Below the pieces are notes generated by a model, which saw only the letters and a program-made list of their open reading frames with translations, was not told where the DNA came from and ran no database searches. A stretch of DNA of 64,000 bases from Oceanobacillus luteolus (GTDB taxonomy: Bacteria > Bacillota > Bacilli > Bacillales > Amphibacillaceae). Numbering within the stretch: position 1 is the first letter of the stretch; each line of letters begins with the position of its first letter. This document shows positions 12,555 through 52,113 of the stretch, piece by piece. Where the stretch lies: NCBI RefSeq assembly GCF_023715655.1, contig NZ_JAMBON010000001.1, forward strand, positions 124,001-188,000, read 5' to 3'. A program made the position numbers and the translations under genes.

Positions 12555-12583
12555 TTGCTAATTAATTCATGTTAAAGTATCAT
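12555..12583 (+). promoter_or_regulatory. Possible sigma-A promoter of bkdR
   Basis: TTGCTA (12555-12560), a 17-base spacer and TATCAT (12578-12583). The rest of the 285-base gap between yqzF and bkdR shows no gene. Confidence 0.4.
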
Positions 12584-12618
12584 ATAGGTATGCAATATAA
12601 TGCAAAGGTGGTGAGGCG

Positions 12619-14655
12619 ATGAAAAAAGTGTTGATTGTCGGTGCTGGTAGGGGAGGCACAGCCTTAATAAAAATCATCCAATCCACTGCGAGTATGCAAA
12701 TTGTAGCAGTAGTCGATCATAATGAAACAGCTCCAGGTTTAGCTTTAGCTAAGAAATTACATATCAATACAGGAACTGAATGGAAAGAATGGCTGGATCA
12801 TGACATCGATATTATGATTGAAGCTACTGGGGATAATACTGTACTGGAAGAAATGATACGTTCAAGAAAAGACAAGACAGTCGTAGTTCCAGGAGCAGTA
12901 GCCTACATCATATCGGAACTTGTTGAAGAGAAAGGTGCATTACTCGAGCAAATTAAACTACAAAGTGACAATCAAGAGTTGATTCTCAATCACATTCGTG
13001 ATGGAATGATCGTAATAGACAATCAAGAAATTATTCGATTTGTGAATGAGAAGGCCGCTGAAATAGTCGGTATCCCTAAGAATGACTTTATAGGTACCCC
13101 TATCCAAGATGTAATAAAAAATTCACGTTTACCACAAGTGCTTAAAAGTCGGGAAAAAGAAATTAATAAAAAGTTTACGCTGGATAACGGTAAACAGATT
13201 ATCTCCACAAGAATCCCACTTATTAGTGAGCGAGGTGAATTGGTTGGTGCCTTTACATTATTTAAGGATATTACGGAAGTCGTCAAACTCGCAGAAGAAA
13301 ATACCGACTTGATAGAAGTAAAGAATATGCTTGAGGCAATCATAAAATCATCGGATGAAGCAATTAGTGTAGTGGACGAAAAAGGTAACGGCATCATGAT
13401 CAACCCTGCATATACAAGGATAACAGGTTTAACTGAGGCAGAGGTCATTGGGAAACCTGCCACCGTGGATATCCACGAAGGGGAGAGCATGCATATGAAG
13501 GTATTGCAAACAGGCAAAGCCTACCGCGGAGTCCGGATGAAAGTCGGTCAGTATAAAAAAGATGTTATTGTGAATATTGCACCTATTATAGTAAAAGGTA
13601 AAATTCGTGGAAGTGTTGGGGTACTTCATGATGTTTCAGAAATCCAAGCATTGACAAAAGAACTCAAGCTAGCAAAGCAACTTATTAGAAGCCTTGAGGC
13701 CAAGTATACTTTTGGCGATATTATCGGATCTTCTCCTGAGTTGCAACTTGCCCTGGAACAAGCAAAAGTCGGTGCGAGAACACCAGCCACTGTATTACTT
13801 AGAGGTGATTCCGGCACTGGTAAGGAATTGTTTGCCCACGCCATCCATAATGAAAGCATTCGTAAACATAATAAATTTATACGGGTTAATTGTGCTGCCA
13901 TAAATGAGAGACTGCTCGAAATCGAATTATTTGGTCTGGAATCAACCACGGAACAAGAAACGAAAATCGGTGCGTTTGAAGAAGCTCACAAAGGCAGTGT
14001 ATTCCTAGATGAAATCGGGGAACTTTCCTTAAATATGCAATCAAAGATATTACGTGTATTGGAAGAAAAAGAAATCATCCGTGTAGGCGGCAGGGAACCA
14101 ATTCCGGTAGATGTGAGAATAATTACAGCAACTAACCTGAATTTAGAAAGAGCGATTCATAATCGTACTTTCAGGGAGGATCTGTACTATCGGTTAAATC
14201 GCTTGCCGATATTTATACCATCACTAAGCGAGAGGAAATCTGATATTCCGGAATTATCGTATCATCTCATTCAAAAACTGAACAGTGATTACGGGAGAAA
14301 CGTCAAAAGTATTAGTGAAGAAGCAGTTGATTTGTTGGAACAATACCACTGGCCAGGAAATGTGAGAGAGCTTGAAAATATATTAGGTAGAGCGATGATT
14401 TTTATGGATAATCAGGAAGAAGTGATTACGAAAGATCACTTACCAAAACTAGAGCAGAACTCGGAAGATGAAAAGCAATCCAATCTACTTTTTCCAGAAT
14501 GGGAATCATTATCTGAAGCAGTCGAAACGTTTGAAAGGGATTATATTAACAAAGTATATAAGAGTAATGGTTTCAACAAAACAAAAACCGCACAGGCATT
14601 GGATATATCCATTCGAAATCTTTATTATAAAATAGAGAAGTATCAGCTTGAATAA
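12619..14655 (+). CDS. bkdR: BkdR-type enhancer-binding-family regulator lacking the GAFTGA loop
   Basis: A 678-residue regulator placed directly before the bkd operon. Domains in order: a Rossmann-like N-terminal domain with VGAGRGG (res 1-115), two PAS domains (about 125-240 and 245-350), an AAA+ ATPase with Walker A GDSGTGKE (res 396-403, Lys402) and Walker B FLDEIGE (Asp464, Glu465), the arginine-finger region FREDLYYRLNRLP, and a C-terminal Fis-type HTH (TKTAQALDISIRNLYYKI). The GAFTGA motif that contacts sigma-54 is missing: after LFGLE (res 437-441) the segment STTEQETKIGAFEEA takes its place. It may therefore control bkd without sigma-54. Confidence 0.9.
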   Translation: MKKVLIVGAGRGGTALIKIIQSTASMQIVAVVDHNETAPGLALAKKLHINTGTEWKEWLDHDIDIMIEATGDNTVLEEMIRSRKDKTVVVPGAVAYIISELVEEKGALLEQIKLQSDNQELILNHIRDGMIVIDNQEIIRFVNEKAAEIVGIPKNDFIGTPIQDVIKNSRLPQVLKSREKEINKKFTLDNGKQIISTRIPLISERGELVGAFTLFKDITEVVKLAEENTDLIEVKNMLEAIIKSSDEAISVVDEKGNGIMINPAYTRITGLTEAEVIGKPATVDIHEGESMHMKVLQTGKAYRGVRMKVGQYKKDVIVNIAPIIVKGKIRGSVGVLHDVSEIQALTKELKLAKQLIRSLEAKYTFGDIIGSSPELQLALEQAKVGARTPATVLLRGDSGTGKELFAHAIHNESIRKHNKFIRVNCAAINERLLEIELFGLESTTEQETKIGAFEEAHKGSVFLDEIGELSLNMQSKILRVLEEKEIIRVGGREPIPVDVRIITATNLNLERAIHNRTFREDLYYRLNRLPIFIPSLSERKSDIPELSYHLIQKLNSDYGRNVKSISEEAVDLLEQYHWPGNVRELENILGRAMIFMDNQEEVITKDHLPKLEQNSEDEKQSNLLFPEWESLSEAVETFERDYINKVYKSNGFNKTKTAQALDISIRNLYYKIEKYQLE

Positions 14656-14670
14656 TGTTATCTAAAAATA

Positions 14671-14685
14671 GTAAAGCGCTTACAT
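14671..14685 (+). promoter_or_regulatory. cre-like site upstream of bcd
   Basis: GTAAAGCGCTTACAT contains the GCGCTTACA half of the CcpA cre consensus exactly, and matches 12 of 14 positions overall. It lies 50-64 bases before the bcd start, where CcpA binding could affect transcription. No -24/-12 sigma-54 element is seen in the 14656-14734 gap. Confidence 0.4.
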
Positions 14686-14734
14686 TCAGCCGTTTAAATG
14701 TTTTACCAATAAATTAAAACATGGAGGAATCAAA

Positions 14735-15829
14735 ATGGAAATCTTTAACGTCATGGGTAAATACGATTATGAACAATTGATTTTATGTCAAGATAAGGCA
14801 TCTGGTCTCAAGGCAATTATTGCAATTCATGATACAACTTTAGGTCCTGCTTTAGGTGGAACAAGAATGTGGACGTATGATTCAGAAGAAGCAGCAATTG
14901 AAGATGCATTACGGTTGGCAAAAGGTATGACATATAAAAATGCCGCTGCCGGATTAGATTTAGGTGGAGGAAAAACTGTTATTATAGGTGATCCAAGAAA
15001 AGATAAGAATCCTGAAATGTTCCGGGCATTTGGCCGTTATATTCAAGGATTGGGTGGTCGTTATATTACGGCTGAGGATGTCGGTACTACAACTGAGGAT
15101 ATGGATCTTATTCATTTAGAAACGGAGTATGTTACAGGCATTTCCCCGAATACACCAGGAGCAGCCGGAAATCCATCACCAGTGACTGCTTATGGAGTCT
15201 ACCAAGGGATGAAAGCGACTGCTAAAGAAGCGTTCGGAAGTGATTCACTTGAAGGTAAAATTATAGCCGTTCAAGGGGTTGGAAACGTAGCTTATGCATT
15301 ATGCGAATATCTCCACAACGAAGGCGCAGAATTGATTGTAACAGATATTAACGAGGACTCAGTGAAGCGTGCAGTTGAGAACTTTGGGGCTAAAGCAGTC
15401 GGTCCGAATGAAATTTATCGGGTAGATTGTGATATATTTGCTCCATGTGCATTAGGAGCAATTATTAATGATGAGACACTTCCTCAATTTAAAGCGAAAG
15501 TCATCGCTGGCTCAGCGAATAATCAATTGGCTGAGGATAGACATGGTGATGCCTTGCATGAGATGGGGATCATTTATGCTCCAGATTATGTAATCAATGC
15601 CGGGGGAGTAATTAATGTCGCTGATGAGCTCGCTGGGTATAACAAAGAAAGAGCATTGAAAAAGGTAGGAATCATTTATTCCAATCTTGAGCGAGTATAT
15701 GAAATTTCTAAAAGAGATAATGTACCTACTTATGTTGCAGCAGATCGAATGGCGGAAGAAAGAATCAATGCAAAACGTCAATCCCGGAGTCAGTTTTTAA
15801 CAAATGAACGCCATATTTTAAATAGATAG
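14735..15829 (+). CDS. bcd: Leucine dehydrogenase
   Basis: A 364-residue NAD-dependent leucine dehydrogenase that deaminates leucine, valine and isoleucine to branched 2-oxo acids. It has the catalytic Lys80 in [10 protein letters not shown], the dinucleotide-binding [11 protein letters not shown] and the DIFAPCALG segment. The SD is ATGGAGGAATC. It is the first gene of the operon here; in B. subtilis ptb precedes it and buk follows it, and both are absent. Its product feeds the BkdA-BkdB-LpdV complex encoded next, which makes branched acyl-CoA primers for iso/anteiso fatty acids. Confidence 0.97.
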
Positions 15830-15864
15830 TAAAATGCTTGCTAATGCGAAAGGAGCGGTTCTAC

Positions 15865-17286
15865 ATGGCAGAAGATTATGATTTAGTCATACTAGGGGGA
15901 GGTACTGGCGGTTATGTCGCGGCTATTCGTGCTTCTCAACTTGGATTAAAGACAGCAATAGTTGAAAATGGAAAGCTCGGTGGTACTTGTCTTCATCGAG
16001 GATGTATACCATCAAAAGCGTTGCTTCGGAGCGCTGAGGTTTATCGCCAAACTCTAGAGGCAGCAACTTTTGGGATTGAGACGAAGGATACTCGACTGGA
16101 CTTCTTAAAAGTACAAGAGAGAAAAAATACTATAGTGGAAAATCTGCACAAAGGTGTCCAGAGTCTAATGAAGAAAGGAAAGATCGATGTCTATCATGGT
16201 TTCGGAAGAATTCTTGGACCCAGTATATTCTCTCCAATGCCTGGAACGATATCGGTTGAGTACGAAAATGGAGACGAGAATACAATTTTAACACCTAAAA
16301 ATGTCATTGTCGCGACAGGTTCACATCCTAGAAGTCTTCCAGGGCTAGATATTGATGGAGAGTACGTGATGTCTTCTGATGAAGCACTGCAAATGGAGGC
16401 TTTGCCGGAATCCATCATAATCGTTGGCGGTGGTGTTATCGGAATTGAATGGGCCTCGATGTTGAGGGACTTTGGTGTTGAAGTGACCGTAATAGAGTAT
16501 GGGAAACAAATCTTACCGACTGAGGACCACGCAATTTCAAGAGAAATGGAACGCTTACTTAAGAAAAAAGGAATAAAATTTGTAAAGGAAGCAAATGTAC
16601 TCGGTGATACCTTACAAATAGAGAATGGTGTGACGATTAAAGCGGAAGTTAAAGGTGAACCAACTTCCTTTACAGCTGATAAAATCCTAGTTTCTGTTGG
16701 ACGTGCAGCTAATGTGGAGAACATTGGATTGAATAATACGGATATTCAGCTGGAAAATGGGTTTATAAAAACGAATCAACATTTTCAAACAAAAGAATCA
16801 CATATCTATGCGATTGGTGATGTTATAGGAGGTATGCAACTAGCCCATGTTGCTTCCCATGAAGGTATCCATGCTGTGGAGCATATCGCTAATCAACAAC
16901 CGATGCCCATTGATTACGAAGCTGTATCAAGTTGCATTTATTCCAACCCTGAAGCAGCCAGTGTGGGATTAACAGAAGCGGAAGCAAAAGAACGAGGTTT
17001 CGATATTAAAGTGGGTAAATTCCCATTTCAAGCTGTCGGTAAGGCACTGGTTTACGGTGAATCGGCTGGATTTGTGAAGATAATAGCAGATAAGAATACA
17101 GAGGATGTACTTGGAGTCCATATGATTGGGCCACATGTTACTGATATGATATCAGAAGCTGGGTTAGCAAAAATGCTCGATGCAACCCCGTGGGAAATTG
17201 CAGGGACAATCCATCCTCATCCTACGCTATCTGAAGCGATAGGGGAAGCCGCATTAGCTGTTGATGGAAAACAGATTCATGGTTGA
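15865..17286 (+). CDS. lpdV: Dihydrolipoyl dehydrogenase (E3) of the branched-chain 2-oxoacid dehydrogenase
   Basis: A 473-residue flavoprotein that reoxidises the dihydrolipoyl arm of BkdB with NAD. FAD site GGGTGG (res 11-16), redox disulfide Cys42/Cys47 in GGTCLHRGCIPSK, NAD site VGGGVIGIE, second FAD motif YAIGDVIGG and the C-terminal catalytic HPHPTLSE are all visible. The start MAEDYDL at 15865 follows AAAGGAGCGG; upstream in-frame codons add unrelated residues. It directly follows bcd (35 bases), and bkdAA begins 29 bases later. Confidence 0.96.
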   Translation: MAEDYDLVILGGGTGGYVAAIRASQLGLKTAIVENGKLGGTCLHRGCIPSKALLRSAEVYRQTLEAATFGIETKDTRLDFLKVQERKNTIVENLHKGVQSLMKKGKIDVYHGFGRILGPSIFSPMPGTISVEYENGDENTILTPKNVIVATGSHPRSLPGLDIDGEYVMSSDEALQMEALPESIIIVGGGVIGIEWASMLRDFGVEVTVIEYGKQILPTEDHAISREMERLLKKKGIKFVKEANVLGDTLQIENGVTIKAEVKGEPTSFTADKILVSVGRAANVENIGLNNTDIQLENGFIKTNQHFQTKESHIYAIGDVIGGMQLAHVASHEGIHAVEHIANQQPMPIDYEAVSSCIYSNPEAASVGLTEAEAKERGFDIKVGKFPFQAVGKALVYGESAGFVKIIADKNTEDVLGVHMIGPHVTDMISEAGLAKMLDATPWEIAGTIHPHPTLSEAIGEAALAVDGKQIHG

Positions 17287-17315
17287 TGATTGAAGATAGA
17301 AGGAGTGAACCGATA

Positions 17316-18308
17316 ATGGGTAATAAACGTCATGAGAAAATTGGCTTAAGCGAGGAACAAGTTTTAGAGATGTACAAAACGATGTTGCTTGCAAGGAAAA
17401 TCGATGAACGCATGTGGTTATTAAATCGTTCTGGTAAGATTCCTTTCGTAATTTCCTGTCAAGGTCAAGAAGCGGCACAGGTAGGAGCAGCATTTGCTCT
17501 TGATAGACAAAAGGATTGGACAGCACCTTATTACCGTGATCTTGGAGTAGTATTAGCTTTTGGCATGACTCCTAAAGACTTGATGTTATCTGCTTTCGCA
17601 AAAGCAGAGGATCCAAACTCCGGCGGAAGACAAATGCCAGGACACTTTGGTCAGAAGAAAAACAGGATCCTAACAGGCTCATCTCCAGTTACAACCCAGT
17701 TACCTCATGCAGTAGGGGTCGCTTTAGCTGGGAAGATGGAGAAACAAGATTTTGTTTCCTTTGTCACTTTAGGTGAAGGGTCATCAAACCAAGGAGACTT
17801 CCATGAAGGGTTAAACTTTGCTGGTGTTCATAAGCTACCTGTAATTACGATGGTTGAGAATAATAAATATGCCATTTCTGTTCCATTTGACAGGCAAGTT
17901 GCGAGTGAAAATATATCGATTCGTGCGAGTAGTTATGGAATGCACGGTATAACAGTTGATGGTAATGATCCGATTGCAGTTTATGAAGCGGTAAAAGACG
18001 CAAGGGAACGGGCTATAAATGGTGAGGGACCATCATTGATCGAGGCGGTTACCTATCGTCTAACTGCTCACTCCAGTGATGATGATGACCGTACGTACCG
18101 TGAAAAAGAAGAAATTGAAGAAGCGAAAAAGCATGATTGTGTACTCACTTTCTCTAATTACTTAAAAGAGGTGGGTGTACTGACAGAAGAACTAGATGAA
18201 AAGATACATGCCGAAGTTAAAGAACTGGTTAATGAGGCAACGGAATATGCGGAAGAAGCGCCATATGCTGCACCGGAACATGCTTTACGTTTTGTTTACG
18301 AGGAATAG
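17316..18308 (+). CDS. bkdAA: Branched-chain 2-oxoacid dehydrogenase E1 alpha subunit
   Basis: A 330-residue E1 alpha subunit. With BkdAB and thiamine diphosphate it decarboxylates branched 2-oxo acids and transfers the acyl group to BkdB. The thiamine-diphosphate motif begins at LGEGSSNQGDFHEGLNFA and extends to VENNKYAIS; the phosphorylation-loop-like region TYRLTAHSSDDDD is also typical. The start MGNKRHEKIG follows AGAAGGAGTG. Operon position between lpdV and bkdAB is standard. Confidence 0.96.
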   Translation: MGNKRHEKIGLSEEQVLEMYKTMLLARKIDERMWLLNRSGKIPFVISCQGQEAAQVGAAFALDRQKDWTAPYYRDLGVVLAFGMTPKDLMLSAFAKAEDPNSGGRQMPGHFGQKKNRILTGSSPVTTQLPHAVGVALAGKMEKQDFVSFVTLGEGSSNQGDFHEGLNFAGVHKLPVITMVENNKYAISVPFDRQVASENISIRASSYGMHGITVDGNDPIAVYEAVKDARERAINGEGPSLIEAVTYRLTAHSSDDDDRTYREKEEIEEAKKHDCVLTFSNYLKEVGVLTEELDEKIHAEVKELVNEATEYAEEAPYAAPEHALRFVYEE

Positions 18309-18323
18309 GAGGGAGAAACTGTC

Positions 18324-19307
18324 ATGGCAGTCATGTCTTATATACAGGCGGTAACCACTGCTTTACGAGAAGAAATGCAACGCGATGAAAAGGTATTTAT
18401 TTTAGGTGAAGATGTTGGTAAAAAAGGTGGGGTTTTCAAAGCTACAGACGGATTATACGAAGAATTTGGAGGAGATCGAGTCCTTGATACACCATTATCA
18501 GAGTCTGCGATAGCCGGGGTTGGAATCGGTGCAGCAATGTATGGAATGCGCCCGGTAGCTGAGATGCAATTTGCAGATTTCATTATGCCGGCGGTAAATC
18601 AAATTATCTCGGAAGCTGCAAAAATCCGGTATAGATCCAATAATGACTGGAACGCTCCAATCACAATCCGAGCACCTTATGGTGGAGGAGTGCATGGCGC
18701 TTTATACCACTCACAGTCAGTAGAAGCAGTATTCGCCAATCAGCCTGGTTTGAAAATTGTTATGCCGTCCACCCCTTTTGATGTCAAAGGATTATTGAAA
18801 GCTGCAATTCGCGATAATGATCCTGTACTGTTTTTCGAACATAAACGTGCTTATAGACTTATTAAGGGAGAAGTTCCAGACGAAGATTATGTACTACCGA
18901 TCGGAAAAGCTGATGTGAAAAGAGAAGGTGATGATATTACGGTCATTACTTATGGTTTAGGGGTACACTTTGCACTGCAAGCAGCTGAAAAGCTGGCGGA
19001 GGATGGAATCGATACTCATATCCTTGACCTTCGTACAGTCTATCCGCTTGATCAAGAAGCAATTATTGAAGCAGCAAAGAAAACGGGTAAAGTATTGCTT
19101 GTAACTGAAGATAACAAAGAAGGTAGTATTATAGGAGAAGTGGCAGCGATAATTGCTGAGAATTGTCTGTTCGATCTGGACGCACCCGTTATGCGCCTTG
19201 CTGGACCTGATGTCCCTGCAATGCCATATTCTCCACCAATGGAAAAATTCTTCATGATCAATCCTGACAAAGTCGAAAAGGCATGTCGTGACTTAGCTGA
19301 ATTTTAA
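18324..19307 (+). CDS. bkdAB: Branched-chain 2-oxoacid dehydrogenase E1 beta subunit
   Basis: A 327-residue E1 beta subunit pairing with BkdAA. It has LGEDVGKKGGVFKATDGL near the N-terminus, the DTPLSESAIAGVGIGAAM and EMQFADFIMPAVNQI segments that build the cofactor site, and the C-terminal transketolase domain around ILDLRTVYPLD. The SD is AGGAGGGAGAAACTGTC. It lies 15 bases after bkdAA and 22 before bkdB. Confidence 0.96.
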   Translation: MAVMSYIQAVTTALREEMQRDEKVFILGEDVGKKGGVFKATDGLYEEFGGDRVLDTPLSESAIAGVGIGAAMYGMRPVAEMQFADFIMPAVNQIISEAAKIRYRSNNDWNAPITIRAPYGGGVHGALYHSQSVEAVFANQPGLKIVMPSTPFDVKGLLKAAIRDNDPVLFFEHKRAYRLIKGEVPDEDYVLPIGKADVKREGDDITVITYGLGVHFALQAAEKLAEDGIDTHILDLRTVYPLDQEAIIEAAKKTGKVLLVTEDNKEGSIIGEVAAIIAENCLFDLDAPVMRLAGPDVPAMPYSPPMEKFFMINPDKVEKACRDLAEF

Positions 19308-19329
19308 TGCAGAAGGAGGTTAAAAAATA

Positions 19330-20601
19330 ATGGCTTTAGAGAAAATTACAATGCCCCAACTTGGAGAAAGTGTAACAGAGGGAACGATTACAACTTGGCT
19401 CGTTAAACCTGGAGACAAGATTAGTAAATACGATCCAATTGCCGAAGTAATGACAGATAAAGTGAATGCTGAGGTGCCCTCTTCCTTTTCAGGCACCATC
19501 AAGGAATTGACAGCTGAAGAAGGAGAAACTCTAGCTGTCGGAGAAGTGATTTGTCATATTGAAATCGAAGGTGGCGAAAGTGAAATCACTTCGAGCACCA
19601 GTAATGAACCTAATGGTAAAACGACGGAAGACACAAAGGAAGCGGATGAAGATCAATCGATGAAAAAAAGATATTCACCTGCGGTATTAAGATTAGCGCA
19701 AGAAAATGATATCGATTTGAATCTTGTCAACGGAACTGGAAGAGGTGGCCGAATTACAAGAAAAGATATCGAGAAAATAATTGCAAGTGGCGAGATTCCA
19801 ACGCAGAAAGAAGAACAAGTGGTTCGGGAACAAGAATCAGCATCTCAACAGCAAGTGCAACCGAAGCAAACAATCAAGAGTGATGAGAATACAACTAAAG
19901 CAGGAGATGTTGAAATTCCTGTAACTGGTGTCCGGAAGGCTATTGCACAGAAAATGGTCACTTCTACCACAGAAATTCCCCATGCTTGGATGACTATAGA
20001 AGTAGATGTTACTGATTTAGTTCGCTTACGTAACTCCCTAAAAACAGAATTTAAAGCACAAGAAGGTTATAATCTGACTTATTTTGCGTTCTTCGTAAAG
20101 GCGGTCGCTCAAGCGTTGAAAGAATTTCCGCAGCTTAATAGCACATGGGCCGGGGATAAGATTATCCAGCGTAAAGACATCAATATTTCCATTGCTGTAG
20201 CAAATGAACAAGAATTATTTGTTCCAGTAATCAAACATGCTGACGAAAAATCGATAAAAGGAATTGCCCGTGAGATTAATGAATTAGCTATTAAAGCGAG
20301 AAGTGGTAAATTAACATCAGAGGACATGAGTGGAGGTACATTCACTCTAAATAATACCGGTACATTCGGTTCTGTCCAATCGATGGGGATCATCAACCAC
20401 CCACAAGCTGCGATATTACAGGTGGAATCAATAGTGAAGCGTCCGGTTATCATCAATGATATGTTTGCAGCAAGAGATATGGTTAATCTTTGTTTATCTT
20501 TAGATCATAGAATTTTGGATGGATTAATTTGCGGAAGGTTCTTGAACCGATTGAAAGAGATTCTTCAACAAACAAATGAAGAGACTACTTCTATTTATTA
20601 G
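19330..20601 (+). CDS. bkdB: Branched-chain 2-oxoacid dehydrogenase E2 (lipoamide acyltransferase)
   Basis: A 423-residue E2 core. The N-terminal lipoyl domain carries the lipoylated Lys44 in MTDKVNAE. A linker rich in Glu, Ser and Thr leads to the peripheral subunit-binding domain (YSPAVLRLAQENDIDL, GTGRGGRITRKDI, about res 115-150). A second Gln-rich linker precedes the catalytic domain, which ends with the HxxxDG motif in LDHRILDG. The SD GAAGGAGG lies a few bases upstream. It is the last bkd gene; brxB follows after about 110 bases. Confidence 0.96.
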   Translation: MALEKITMPQLGESVTEGTITTWLVKPGDKISKYDPIAEVMTDKVNAEVPSSFSGTIKELTAEEGETLAVGEVICHIEIEGGESEITSSTSNEPNGKTTEDTKEADEDQSMKKRYSPAVLRLAQENDIDLNLVNGTGRGGRITRKDIEKIIASGEIPTQKEEQVVREQESASQQQVQPKQTIKSDENTTKAGDVEIPVTGVRKAIAQKMVTSTTEIPHAWMTIEVDVTDLVRLRNSLKTEFKAQEGYNLTYFAFFVKAVAQALKEFPQLNSTWAGDKIIQRKDINISIAVANEQELFVPVIKHADEKSIKGIAREINELAIKARSGKLTSEDMSGGTFTLNNTGTFGSVQSMGIINHPQAAILQVESIVKRPVIINDMFAARDMVNLCLSLDHRILDGLICGRFLNRLKEILQQTNEETTSIY

Positions 20602-50602: not shown

Positions 50603-51535
50603 ATGCGAGTAGTGTTGGGAATTTTAACAAGCGTTTCGCTGTTTTTCTTATTCCTTGGAAGTGGACAGGCTGCCCCAGATGTTTCTGCAGAACATGCAAT
50701 ATTAATGGATGCGGAACGGGGTGAAATATTATTTGAAAAAGAAGCTTTTGAAGAAAGTCCTATTGCGAGTATAACTAAAATCATGACAGCAATTCTTGCT
50801 ATTGAATCCGGCAAAATGGAGGAAACAACGACTGTATCGAGAAAAGCTGTTTATACCGAAGGCTCATCGATTTACTTAGAGCAAGGTGAAAAAATTAAAA
50901 TTAAAGATCTTGTATACGGTTTGATGCTACGTTCTGGTAATGATGCAGCAGTTGCTATAGCTGAGCACATAGGTGAAAGTGAAGAGGGGTTTGTCTATTT
51001 AATGAATGAAAAGGCAAGATGGCTTGGCATGGACAACACCAACTTCAAAAATCCTCATGGTTTGGATGACGAAGAACATTATTCCAGTGCGTATGATATG
51101 GCAATTTTAACAAAAGAAGCAATGAATAATGAACATTTCAAAGAGATTAGTGGAGCAGTAAGCTATTTATCGGAAAATCGATCGTATAGTTGGCGGAATA
51201 AACATAAACTTGTCACAGGTTACTACTCCCATGCCTCCGGAGGAAAGACAGGATATACAAGACGGACGGGCAGAACATTGGTGACAACTGCAGAAAAGGA
51301 TGGAAACTCTTTGATTGCTGTAACCTTAAATGGACCAAATGATTGGAACGATCATATTTCACTCTTTGAATGGGGCTTTGATGAATTGGATGAAAGGAAT
51401 GATAAAGAAGGTGAAGAATTAAAGTTAAATGATTCAGAGTTTGATGATACGGCGTTTGTTCAGGAACCGAACAACCGACTTATGTCATCTCTCTCTTCTG
51501 TCTTCCGGAAAATGGTAGGGATCGAACCATGGTAA
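50603..51535 (+). CDS. dacB: D-alanyl-D-alanine carboxypeptidase DacB (spore, mother cell)
   Basis: A 310-residue penicillin-binding protein that adjusts cortex cross-linking. Signal peptide (cleaved near GQAAPDV), SITK at Ser56-Lys59, SGN in LRSGNDAAVA and KTG in GGKTGYT. It is shorter than the B. subtilis DacB (382 residues) and ends soon after the catalytic domain, lacking most of the C-terminal beta domain. CTAGGAGG lies before the ATG. The spmA start overlaps its stop by seven bases, so the dacB-spmA-spmB operon is intact. Confidence 0.92.
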   Translation: MRVVLGILTSVSLFFLFLGSGQAAPDVSAEHAILMDAERGEILFEKEAFEESPIASITKIMTAILAIESGKMEETTTVSRKAVYTEGSSIYLEQGEKIKIKDLVYGLMLRSGNDAAVAIAEHIGESEEGFVYLMNEKARWLGMDNTNFKNPHGLDDEEHYSSAYDMAILTKEAMNNEHFKEISGAVSYLSENRSYSWRNKHKLVTGYYSHASGGKTGYTRRTGRTLVTTAEKDGNSLIAVTLNGPNDWNDHISLFEWGFDELDERNDKEGEELKLNDSEFDDTAFVQEPNNRLMSSLSSVFRKMVGIEPW

Positions 51536-52113
51536 ACTTAATTTGGGCATGTATGATAATTTTTGGCATCCTGTTTGCTATATTCAATGGGACGATGAAC
51601 GAAGTCAATAAAGCAATTATTGAGAGCGCAGGTGAAGCAGTTACATTATCGATAGGTTTAATTAGTATTCTAGTATTCTGGCTTGGTGTAATGAAAATTG
51701 CAGAAGCCGCGGGGATTTTAAAAGTTATCACCAAAATCATGCGACCGATGATTGTTAAAATTTTTCCTGAAATACCAAAAGACCATCCGGCAATGGGCTA
51801 TATTCTCTCCAACTTCACTGCAAACTTTTTTGGATTAGGAAACGCTGCAACACCTTTGGGAATAAAGGCGATGCAAGAAATGAAAAAGTTAAGTGGTTCT
51901 GATGTCGCTTCTCGGTCGATGATTACCTTTTTGGCAATAAATACTTCCAGTCTCACACTAATACCAACGACAGTCATTGCGATTCGGATGCAATATAATT
52001 CCACTTCTCCAACCGAAATCGTCGCAACTACATTAATAGCTTCCCTTGCTGGTGTCACAAGTGCTGTGTTGATCGACAGGTACTACTATAAAAAAGAGTC
52101 TCGGAGGAAATAG
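51529..52113 (+). CDS. spmA: Spore maturation protein A
   Basis: A 194-residue membrane protein with nucleoside-transporter-gate-like helices; GLGNAATPLGIKAMQEM is the signature. SpmA and SpmB are needed for full spore core dehydration in B. subtilis. The ATG lies inside the end of dacB. The spmB start follows two bases after its stop. Confidence 0.95.
   Translation: MVNLIWACMIIFGILFAIFNGTMNEVNKAIIESAGEAVTLSIGLISILVFWLGVMKIAEAAGILKVITKIMRPMIVKIFPEIPKDHPAMGYILSNFTANFFGLGNAATPLGIKAMQEMKKLSGSDVASRSMITFLAINTSSLTLIPTTVIAIRMQYNSTSPTEIVATTLIASLAGVTSAVLIDRYYYKKESRRK

Follow-up and report, generated by a model that had tools for sequence, protein, structure and literature searches.

Oceanobacillus is a salt-loving relative of Bacillus, and BkdR is its switch for branched-chain amino acid breakdown. 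The locus described here lies in a 64,000-nucleotide stretch of the Oceanobacillus luteolus genome (the window), and it raises one question: how are the bkd genes controlled when BkdR keeps the AAA+ core of a sigma-54 activator and has lost the GAFTGA motif? The bkd operon of B. thuringiensis is reported to depend on sigma-54 and BkdR and to have a -24/-12 promoter (PMC4428206), and a GAFTGA-type loop with T4 changed to S is reported for B. subtilis BkdR (PMC3162934). Both proteins resemble the one studied here in lying beside bkd genes and in being PAS-containing EBPs, a likeness of setting and domains. They keep a GAFTGA-type loop whereas the O. luteolus protein has none, and the -24/-12 promoter of the B. 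thuringiensis operon has no counterpart at the O. luteolus bkd locus.

The BkdR protein and the sigma-54 machinery of its host

The bkdR gene (12619..14655, forward strand, as are all features below) is an open reading frame of 678 residues, encoding a Rossmann-type N-terminal domain (NTD), two PAS domains, an AAA+ domain (PF00158), a lid and a Fis-type HTH. It belongs to the BkdR orthologue group, since it is the best-matching protein beside bkd genes and has the order NTD-PAS-PAS-AAA+-HTH. In the Pfam scan, PF00158 covers residues 368-531 (7e-59), and the HTH (PF02954) is encoded by 14521..14643. The EBP fold is complete: alongside PF00158 there are Walker A (GDSGTGKE, residues 396-403, 13804..13827), Walker B (VFLDEIGE, residues 461-468, 13999..14022), sensor II (GNVREL, residues 580-585, 14356..14373), and the REDLYYR stretch (14173..14193, within FREDLYYRLN, residues 518-527), whose R519 and R525 we take to be the arginine fingers by analogy with other EBPs. 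The sequence-only reading of this locus had described Walker A, Walker B and the arginine-finger region as kept; this is correct, and sensor II can be added. With the motif gone and the EBP-type AAA+ domain kept, BkdR is a GAFTGA-less EBP.

The loss lies in loop 1 (residues 440-450, 13936..13968), which directly follows ELFG at residues 436-439. Aligned with its orthologues, the region reads ELFG-LESTTEQETKI-GAFEEA, and the loop-1 stretch has four residues fewer than its counterpart in orthologues with GAFTGA. That GAFTGA disappeared after ELFG had thus been recognised rightly, while the range first given for it, residues 442-456, was slightly too long, as GAFEEA (451-456) aligns normally. A sequencing error or misalignment is ruled out: at the same place GAFTGA is also missing from the intact reading frames of two related genomes, O. 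indicireducens (L048, seemingly identical to the sister genome G023/L010) and O. alkalisoli (L047). In the predicted model of BkdR, the loop-1 stretch has two short strands (439-441 and 448-450), predicted with modest confidence (a pLDDT of 68 for the block and an overall pTM of 0.38). Judging from its sequence, BkdR looks like a working protein without sigma-54 contact.

The N-terminal domain (12619..12900) has a GxGxxG motif and a conserved D33. Its Rossmann-like character, also noticed earlier, is borne out by the Pfam scan, by an AlphaFold2 model of residues 1-115 (mean pLDDT 93.2), and by Foldseek, whose best matches are to the aldehyde dehydrogenase of aldolase-dehydrogenase complexes (best E 3.3e-5) and then to GAPDH. 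It is plausible from the model that this domain binds NAD(H) or CoA. GAFTGA-bearing orthologues have the same domain, so it is not tied to the loss of the loop.

The host keeps sigma-54. A check for rpoN, suggested by the sequence-only reading, returned one match, a single open reading frame of 452 aa. There are seven PF00158 matches in the genome; besides BkdR, three are strong and three weak, and the loops of the strong ones are GAFTGA, GAFTDA and GSFTGA. Since rpoN and three GAFTGA-type activators are present, sigma-54 is retained, and of the four strong matches BkdR is the one without the motif. The promoter that it would serve is absent from the scanned region: there is no GG-N10-GC within -60..+500 of the bkdR stop, and no TTGGCAY-N4-TTTGCW with up to three mismatches in 14656-14734, so that the consensus scans of the bkdR-bcd gap agree with the earlier impression that no -24/-12 element precedes bcd. 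Across the genome, a scan for TGGCAC-N5-TTGCA with one mismatch yields 59 matches, compared with 34 for the reversed control. In the window, TTGGCAY-N4-TTTGCW with three or fewer mismatches occurs about as often as in the background (87 against 77). One perfect match to the latter, TTGGCATCCTGTTTGCT, lies at 51563-51579 (+), just inside the start of an ORF (51529-52113) that looks like a spore-maturation gene; this is possibly a chance match.

Loop class and -24/-12 promoter in two families

BkdR orthologues were collected from two families. In the host's own family 159 genomes were searched, and 92 have an orthologue at 1e-150, all of which were read; in a second family, which contains Halobacillus, all 44 genomes have a match and 43 were read (G213, at a contig end, was left out). 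One genome of the Halobacillus family, G227 (L263), in which bkdR is split into open frames of 434 and 305 residues, with a GAFSGA loop and a match to rpoN, was excluded from table and tree, leaving 134 genomes in the table; L119 (GAFSGA) is in no count, and the loops of L211 and L219-L221, which escaped the search pattern, were read individually. A loop was called intact if it reads G[AS]F[TS]GA, and a promoter present if at least 11 of 13 positions match TTGGCAY-N4-TTTGCW within -60..+500 of the bkdR stop, both the loop rule and the 11/13 threshold having been settled after the sequences and scores were seen.

Loss of GAFTGA recurs among the aligned homologues, in 38/134 orthologues from both families. 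An intact loop is found together with a promoter in 92/134 genomes and without one in 4/134; a degenerate loop never occurs with a promoter (0/134), and occurs without one in 38/134. The association has a Fisher p of 3e-29, a value that ignores shared ancestry. A set of named genomes, which overlaps in part with this survey, agrees: among the 145 distinct sequences of a joint tree, the same classes count 112, 4, 0 and 29. The lowest accepted promoter score is 11, for instance TTGGCACAATGGGTGCT in G209, a genome without an rpoN match. Among degenerate loops, the top rejected score is 10/13 (G220, at +195), and in G161 a weak -24/-12-like sequence, TTGGATGATTTGTTGCA (9/13, at +42), may by its appearance be the remnant of a decaying promoter. 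By the looser rules reported in PMC3162934, seven loops called degenerate are possibly functional: DAFSGA (G033), GAFSES (G156), GAFEGA (G217, G224, G225), and GTFSGA (G219, G221). When these borderline loops are moved to the intact class, there are 92 intact loops with and 11 without a promoter, and 0 degenerate loops with and 31 without.

Loss of rpoN is rejected as a general cause, since a match is kept in 31 of the 38 degenerate-loop genomes and is missing in 7/38. These matches were scored by the DNA-binding domain over the family cut-off, the whole ORF being read in the O. luteolus genome only, and a few rpoN open frames are short (347 aa in G159, for example). An intact loop and a promoter are found without rpoN in G182 and G209; either rpoN was missed there, or promoter and loop can persist after it is lost. 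Altogether bkdR is kept without an rpoN match in ten genomes (G078, G080, G081, G082, G086, G156, G158, G160, G182, G209). In a Sediminibacillus-like genus rpoN is present in some species and absent in others. Several genomes have two strong rpoN matches (e.g., G028, G111, G183), and in G014 and G018 the second copy is divergent (96 and 90 bits).

This distribution bears on the idea that BkdR, by means of a non-canonical loop, has remained a partner of sigma-54, whether at bcd or at other targets. The presence of rpoN in the genome agrees with it, and some GAFTGA substitutions are reported to be tolerated in other EBPs (PMC3162934). Here, however, the whole motif is gone rather than substituted, the target has no -24/-12 element, and in the scanned bkdR-bkd region none of the 38 degenerate orthologues reaches the 11/13 score; the idea is highly improbable.

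The loop and the promoter may also have been lost together partly by shared descent and chance, with no general rule. On one quick tree, the loop requires 9 changes and the promoter 11 under parsimony, or 6 and 9 once six long-branch rows are removed. Phylogenetically independent pairs change in the same direction in 4.5 of 6 cases on average, and never in the opposite one; the sign test has a median p of 0.0625 (range 0.0625-0.25), or 0.125 without the six long-branch rows. That this corrected test does not fall below 0.05, and that several of the branches on which a loss falls are long or weakly placed, speaks for shared descent. Against it, the losses are spread over separate clades that differ in what replaced the motif (a deletion, or P, E, V, A or Y in place of the threonine), and none of the 134 genomes combines a degenerate loop with a promoter. 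The O. luteolus clade (A) and the O. oncorhynchi clade (B) are themselves separate in the tree, each beside GAFTGA-bearing relatives. We give shared descent and chance a small share of the probability, and after phylogenetic correction the coupling of loop and promoter in these sequences is suggestive only.

The order of the losses can be read from the mixed class. Four genomes lack the promoter and keep the loop (G076, G081, G185, G212), and the reverse state is found in none. One of them, G185 (GAFSGA), is the sister of G033 (DAFSGA), and both lack the promoter. In one genus of the Halobacillus family all 11 of 11 members are without the promoter, and the motif wanders through GSFPGA, GAFPGA, GAFVGA, GAFAGA, GTFSGA, GAFEGA and GTFAGA. 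Although four cases are few, this pattern fits a promoter that was lost first, followed by relaxed constraint on the loop. Across the two families the BkdR sequences thus show what look like stages: intact; promoter lost and loop kept; loop eroded; ATPase eroded.

How the change is distributed along the protein was followed through 184 columns that are near-invariant in 65 intact rows, 8 of them in loop 1 and 176 elsewhere. In the O. luteolus clade it is focused on loop 1, where 5/8 columns are changed versus 5/176 elsewhere (0/13 in the HTH and 0/11 in PAS1); in a Sediminibacillus-like group of six genomes the counts are 3/8 versus 2/176, and in clade B (O. oncorhynchi, O. jeddahense and their kin) 6/8 versus 15/176. 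Two control clades have no change in the eight loop-1 columns. All five catalytic features that were checked are kept in 26/38 degenerate versus 95/96 intact orthologues, the other 12/38 lacking at least one. The second arginine finger is lost in 7/7 clade B genomes of the family survey, where the sequences suggest that the ATPase may be being lost as well. Outside GAFTGA, the near-invariant residues 435, 475 and 482 of BkdR are changed in parallel in loop-less clades, the first in three groups and the other two in two; they are possibly coupled to the loop.

Such erosion raises the possibility that BkdR is a decaying remnant on its way out, with bkd either constitutive or left entirely to other regulators. 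Arginine-finger, Walker B or sensor II residues are lost in clade B and in some long-branch orthologues, and five genomes of the same genus (G004, G006, G011, G016, G022) have rpoN and no BkdR orthologue at 1e-120. The O. luteolus gene, on the contrary, is an intact ORF whose clade has changed 10/184 near-invariant columns, five of them in loop 1, and its promoter-operator block has diverged less than the bkdR-bcd gap (see below). A remnant is improbable here.

The bkdR promoter and the bkdR-bcd gap

If the -24/-12 promoter is gone, transcription may start upstream of bkdR. A sigma-A-type promoter, TTGCTA-17 nt-TATCAT, lies at 12555..12583, with 9/12 positions of the consensus; matches of such score number 13 in the window against 11.8 in shuffles, so that it is not significant alone. 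The block is conserved in clade A, and its clade B equivalent is 92-100% identical in six pairs. Just after the -10 comes an inverted TGCA-N6-TGCA site (12591..12604), a putative BkdR operator by its conservation, which is the sole exact copy in the 64 kb window (1.16 expected by chance). In most genomes this site is ~27 bp before the bkdR start, and in the examples looked at it comes directly behind the -10 of a TTGCYA-17-TATSAT-like promoter. Allowing one mismatch, 37/38 degenerate and 88/92 intact-plus-promoter genomes have it at -45..-10 of bkdR, and 18/38 and 59/92, respectively, have an exact copy before bkdR. A second site over the -35 has a one-mismatch match in most degenerate relatives and no match in the O. 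luteolus clade. Near the bkdR stop the numbers differ: in the host's own family the mean is 2.07 sites (n=67 intact) versus 0.73 (n=22 degenerate), and O. luteolus has none. The conserved promoter and operator-like site before bkdR make this sigma-A-type promoter a candidate place of action for BkdR.

The 79-bp bkdR-bcd gap (14656..14734) has, by consensus scans, no match to a distal TGCA-N6-TGCA, a -24/-12 element, a sigma-A promoter or a + strand terminator. It does contain a palindrome, GTAAAGCGCTTACA (14671..14684), cre-like by the CcpA consensus and shared by the three clade A gaps that were compared; a similar AAGCGCTT core is found in several GAFTGA-bearing gaps of the same genus. CcpA is reported to affect the bkd operon in B. 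cereus and reportedly does not in B. subtilis (PMC2358912). Behind the gap come bcd, the first gene after bkdR, which is leucine dehydrogenase-like (14735..15829), and lpd, bkdAA, bkdAB and a bkdB-like gene for the branched-chain 2-oxoacid dehydrogenase complex (15838..20601), products being assigned by eye from sequence.

The gap is contracted in most loop-less genomes. It is at most 80 bp in 27/38 degenerate versus 4/90 intact genomes, and 9-11 bp in one genus, with gaps and starts called by simple rules rather than curated annotation; the own-family count covers 65/67 intact rows, two being without a gene call. The block upstream of bkdR is better conserved than the gap, with identities of 92-100% versus 54-66% in six clade B pairs and of 86% versus 72% in one clade A pair. 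Clade B (7/38) has gaps of 135-191 bp and, allowing one mismatch, a site near the bkdR stop in 6/7 genomes, and four further degenerate genomes have gaps of more than 80 bp. A stronger bkdR promoter after the loss was considered and rejected, mean best matches of 8.89 (n=38) and 8.68 (n=97) out of 12 showing no clear difference.

A proposed exit from sigma-54 control

A comparison of 134 orthologues makes it very likely that BkdR is a sigma-54-independent regulator, as the sequence-only reading had supposed. How pathway control could survive is suggested by the surviving bkdR promoter, the operator-like site and the contracted gap. The ancestral BkdR would have been an EBP with two jobs: activating the bkd operon at a -24/-12 promoter via sites near the end of bkdR, and binding next to the sigma-A promoter of bkdR itself. 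The distal sites and the -24/-12 promoter would then have been lost, often with contraction of the gap, and the bkd genes would be co-transcribed with bkdR by read-through from its sigma-A promoter. BkdR would control this fused unit by autoregulation without sigma-54, most likely through repression that a metabolite of the pathway relieves. In TyrR, nucleotide binding is used in oligomerisation, and it may serve the same purpose in BkdR. Useless once its promoter had gone, the loop would have decayed afterwards. Taken as a whole, with bkd behind the autoregulated sigma-A promoter of bkdR, BkdR independent of sigma-54, and the promoter lost before the loop, this model is the one that we favour, with some confidence. 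There is a precedent for its second job: B. thuringiensis SoxR, an EBP, is reported to autoregulate negatively a promoter without a -12/-24 element (PMC4941409). Simple fusion is no explanation for clade B, given its long gaps and kept stop-proximal site, nor for the four other long-gap genomes. Weak sigma-A promoter matches inside bkdR, such as the one at 14600-14628, are a possible source of bkd transcripts.

BkdR might instead activate sigma-A RNA polymerase, at its own promoter or at a cryptic bkd promoter, and be no repressor. R. capsulatus NtrC, which lacks GAFTGA, is reported to activate through sigma-70, and Caulobacter NtrC, also without it, regulates sigma-70 promoters in both directions (PMC10274813); O. 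luteolus keeps the ATPase core, and 26/38 keep the five catalytic features. The conserved site at 12591-12604 argues against such activation, as it lies just after the -10, a position usually tied to repression, and the bkdR-bcd gap has no sigma-A promoter match. We regard an activator as unlikely, and retain autoregulation of the fused unit as the better account.

Known proteins resemble BkdR in part. Like it, both NtrC proteins keep the AAA+ domain and have a loop-1 deletion that removes GAFTGA, but they are response regulators with a receiver domain, act at sigma-70 promoters, and differ from one another in their need for ATP (PMC10274813). E. coli TyrR also has an EBP-type AAA+ domain with a defective GAFTGA, and is sigma-70 dependent (PMC3162934). 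The loss in BkdR differs from that in TyrR in being repeated within one orthologue group, accompanied by promoter loss and often by gap contraction. The N-terminus of TyrR is also of another kind, an ACT domain. None is among the matches listed for BkdR (the best 25 of 31 Pfam families), which with its Rossmann NTD and PAS domains therefore falls outside the TyrR family proper. VpsR, DhaR, HupR and YplP are likewise GAFTGA-defective EBP homologues, and what was available of PMC3162934 reports no link between them and a contracted gap behind an autoregulated promoter. B. thuringiensis SoxR, unlike BkdR, has GAFTGA, as do all eight EBPs of that strain, and has sigma-54 targets (PMC4428206).

That GAFTGA-less EBPs act at sigma-70 promoters is established (PMC3162934, PMC10274813). 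For the route by which BkdR would have been uncoupled, promoter loss and then loop decay, no report was found in the literature searched, as far as its accessible text goes. An EBP may be the autoregulator of a sigma-A promoter to begin with, so that one deletion would be enough to make a single autoregulated unit. On this basis we propose, tentatively and with less than even confidence, that there is a repeatable exit from sigma-54: one promoter deletion joins the EBP gene to its operon in a single sigma-A unit under autoregulation, the loop then decays, and the retained ATPase gates oligomerisation or, as the boldest possibility, acts on sigma-A polymerase.

Elsewhere, as far as the sources consulted go, GAFTGA-less EBPs are scattered reports, while the BkdR orthologues have lost the motif repeatedly within a single group. 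Since the partner promoter is lost too and there are apparent intermediates, the order and cause of sigma-54 uncoupling could be tested in a laboratory Bacillus. To annotate BkdR by homology as a sigma-54 activator is likely to mislead in many Oceanobacillus, Halobacillus-family and related genomes (38/134).
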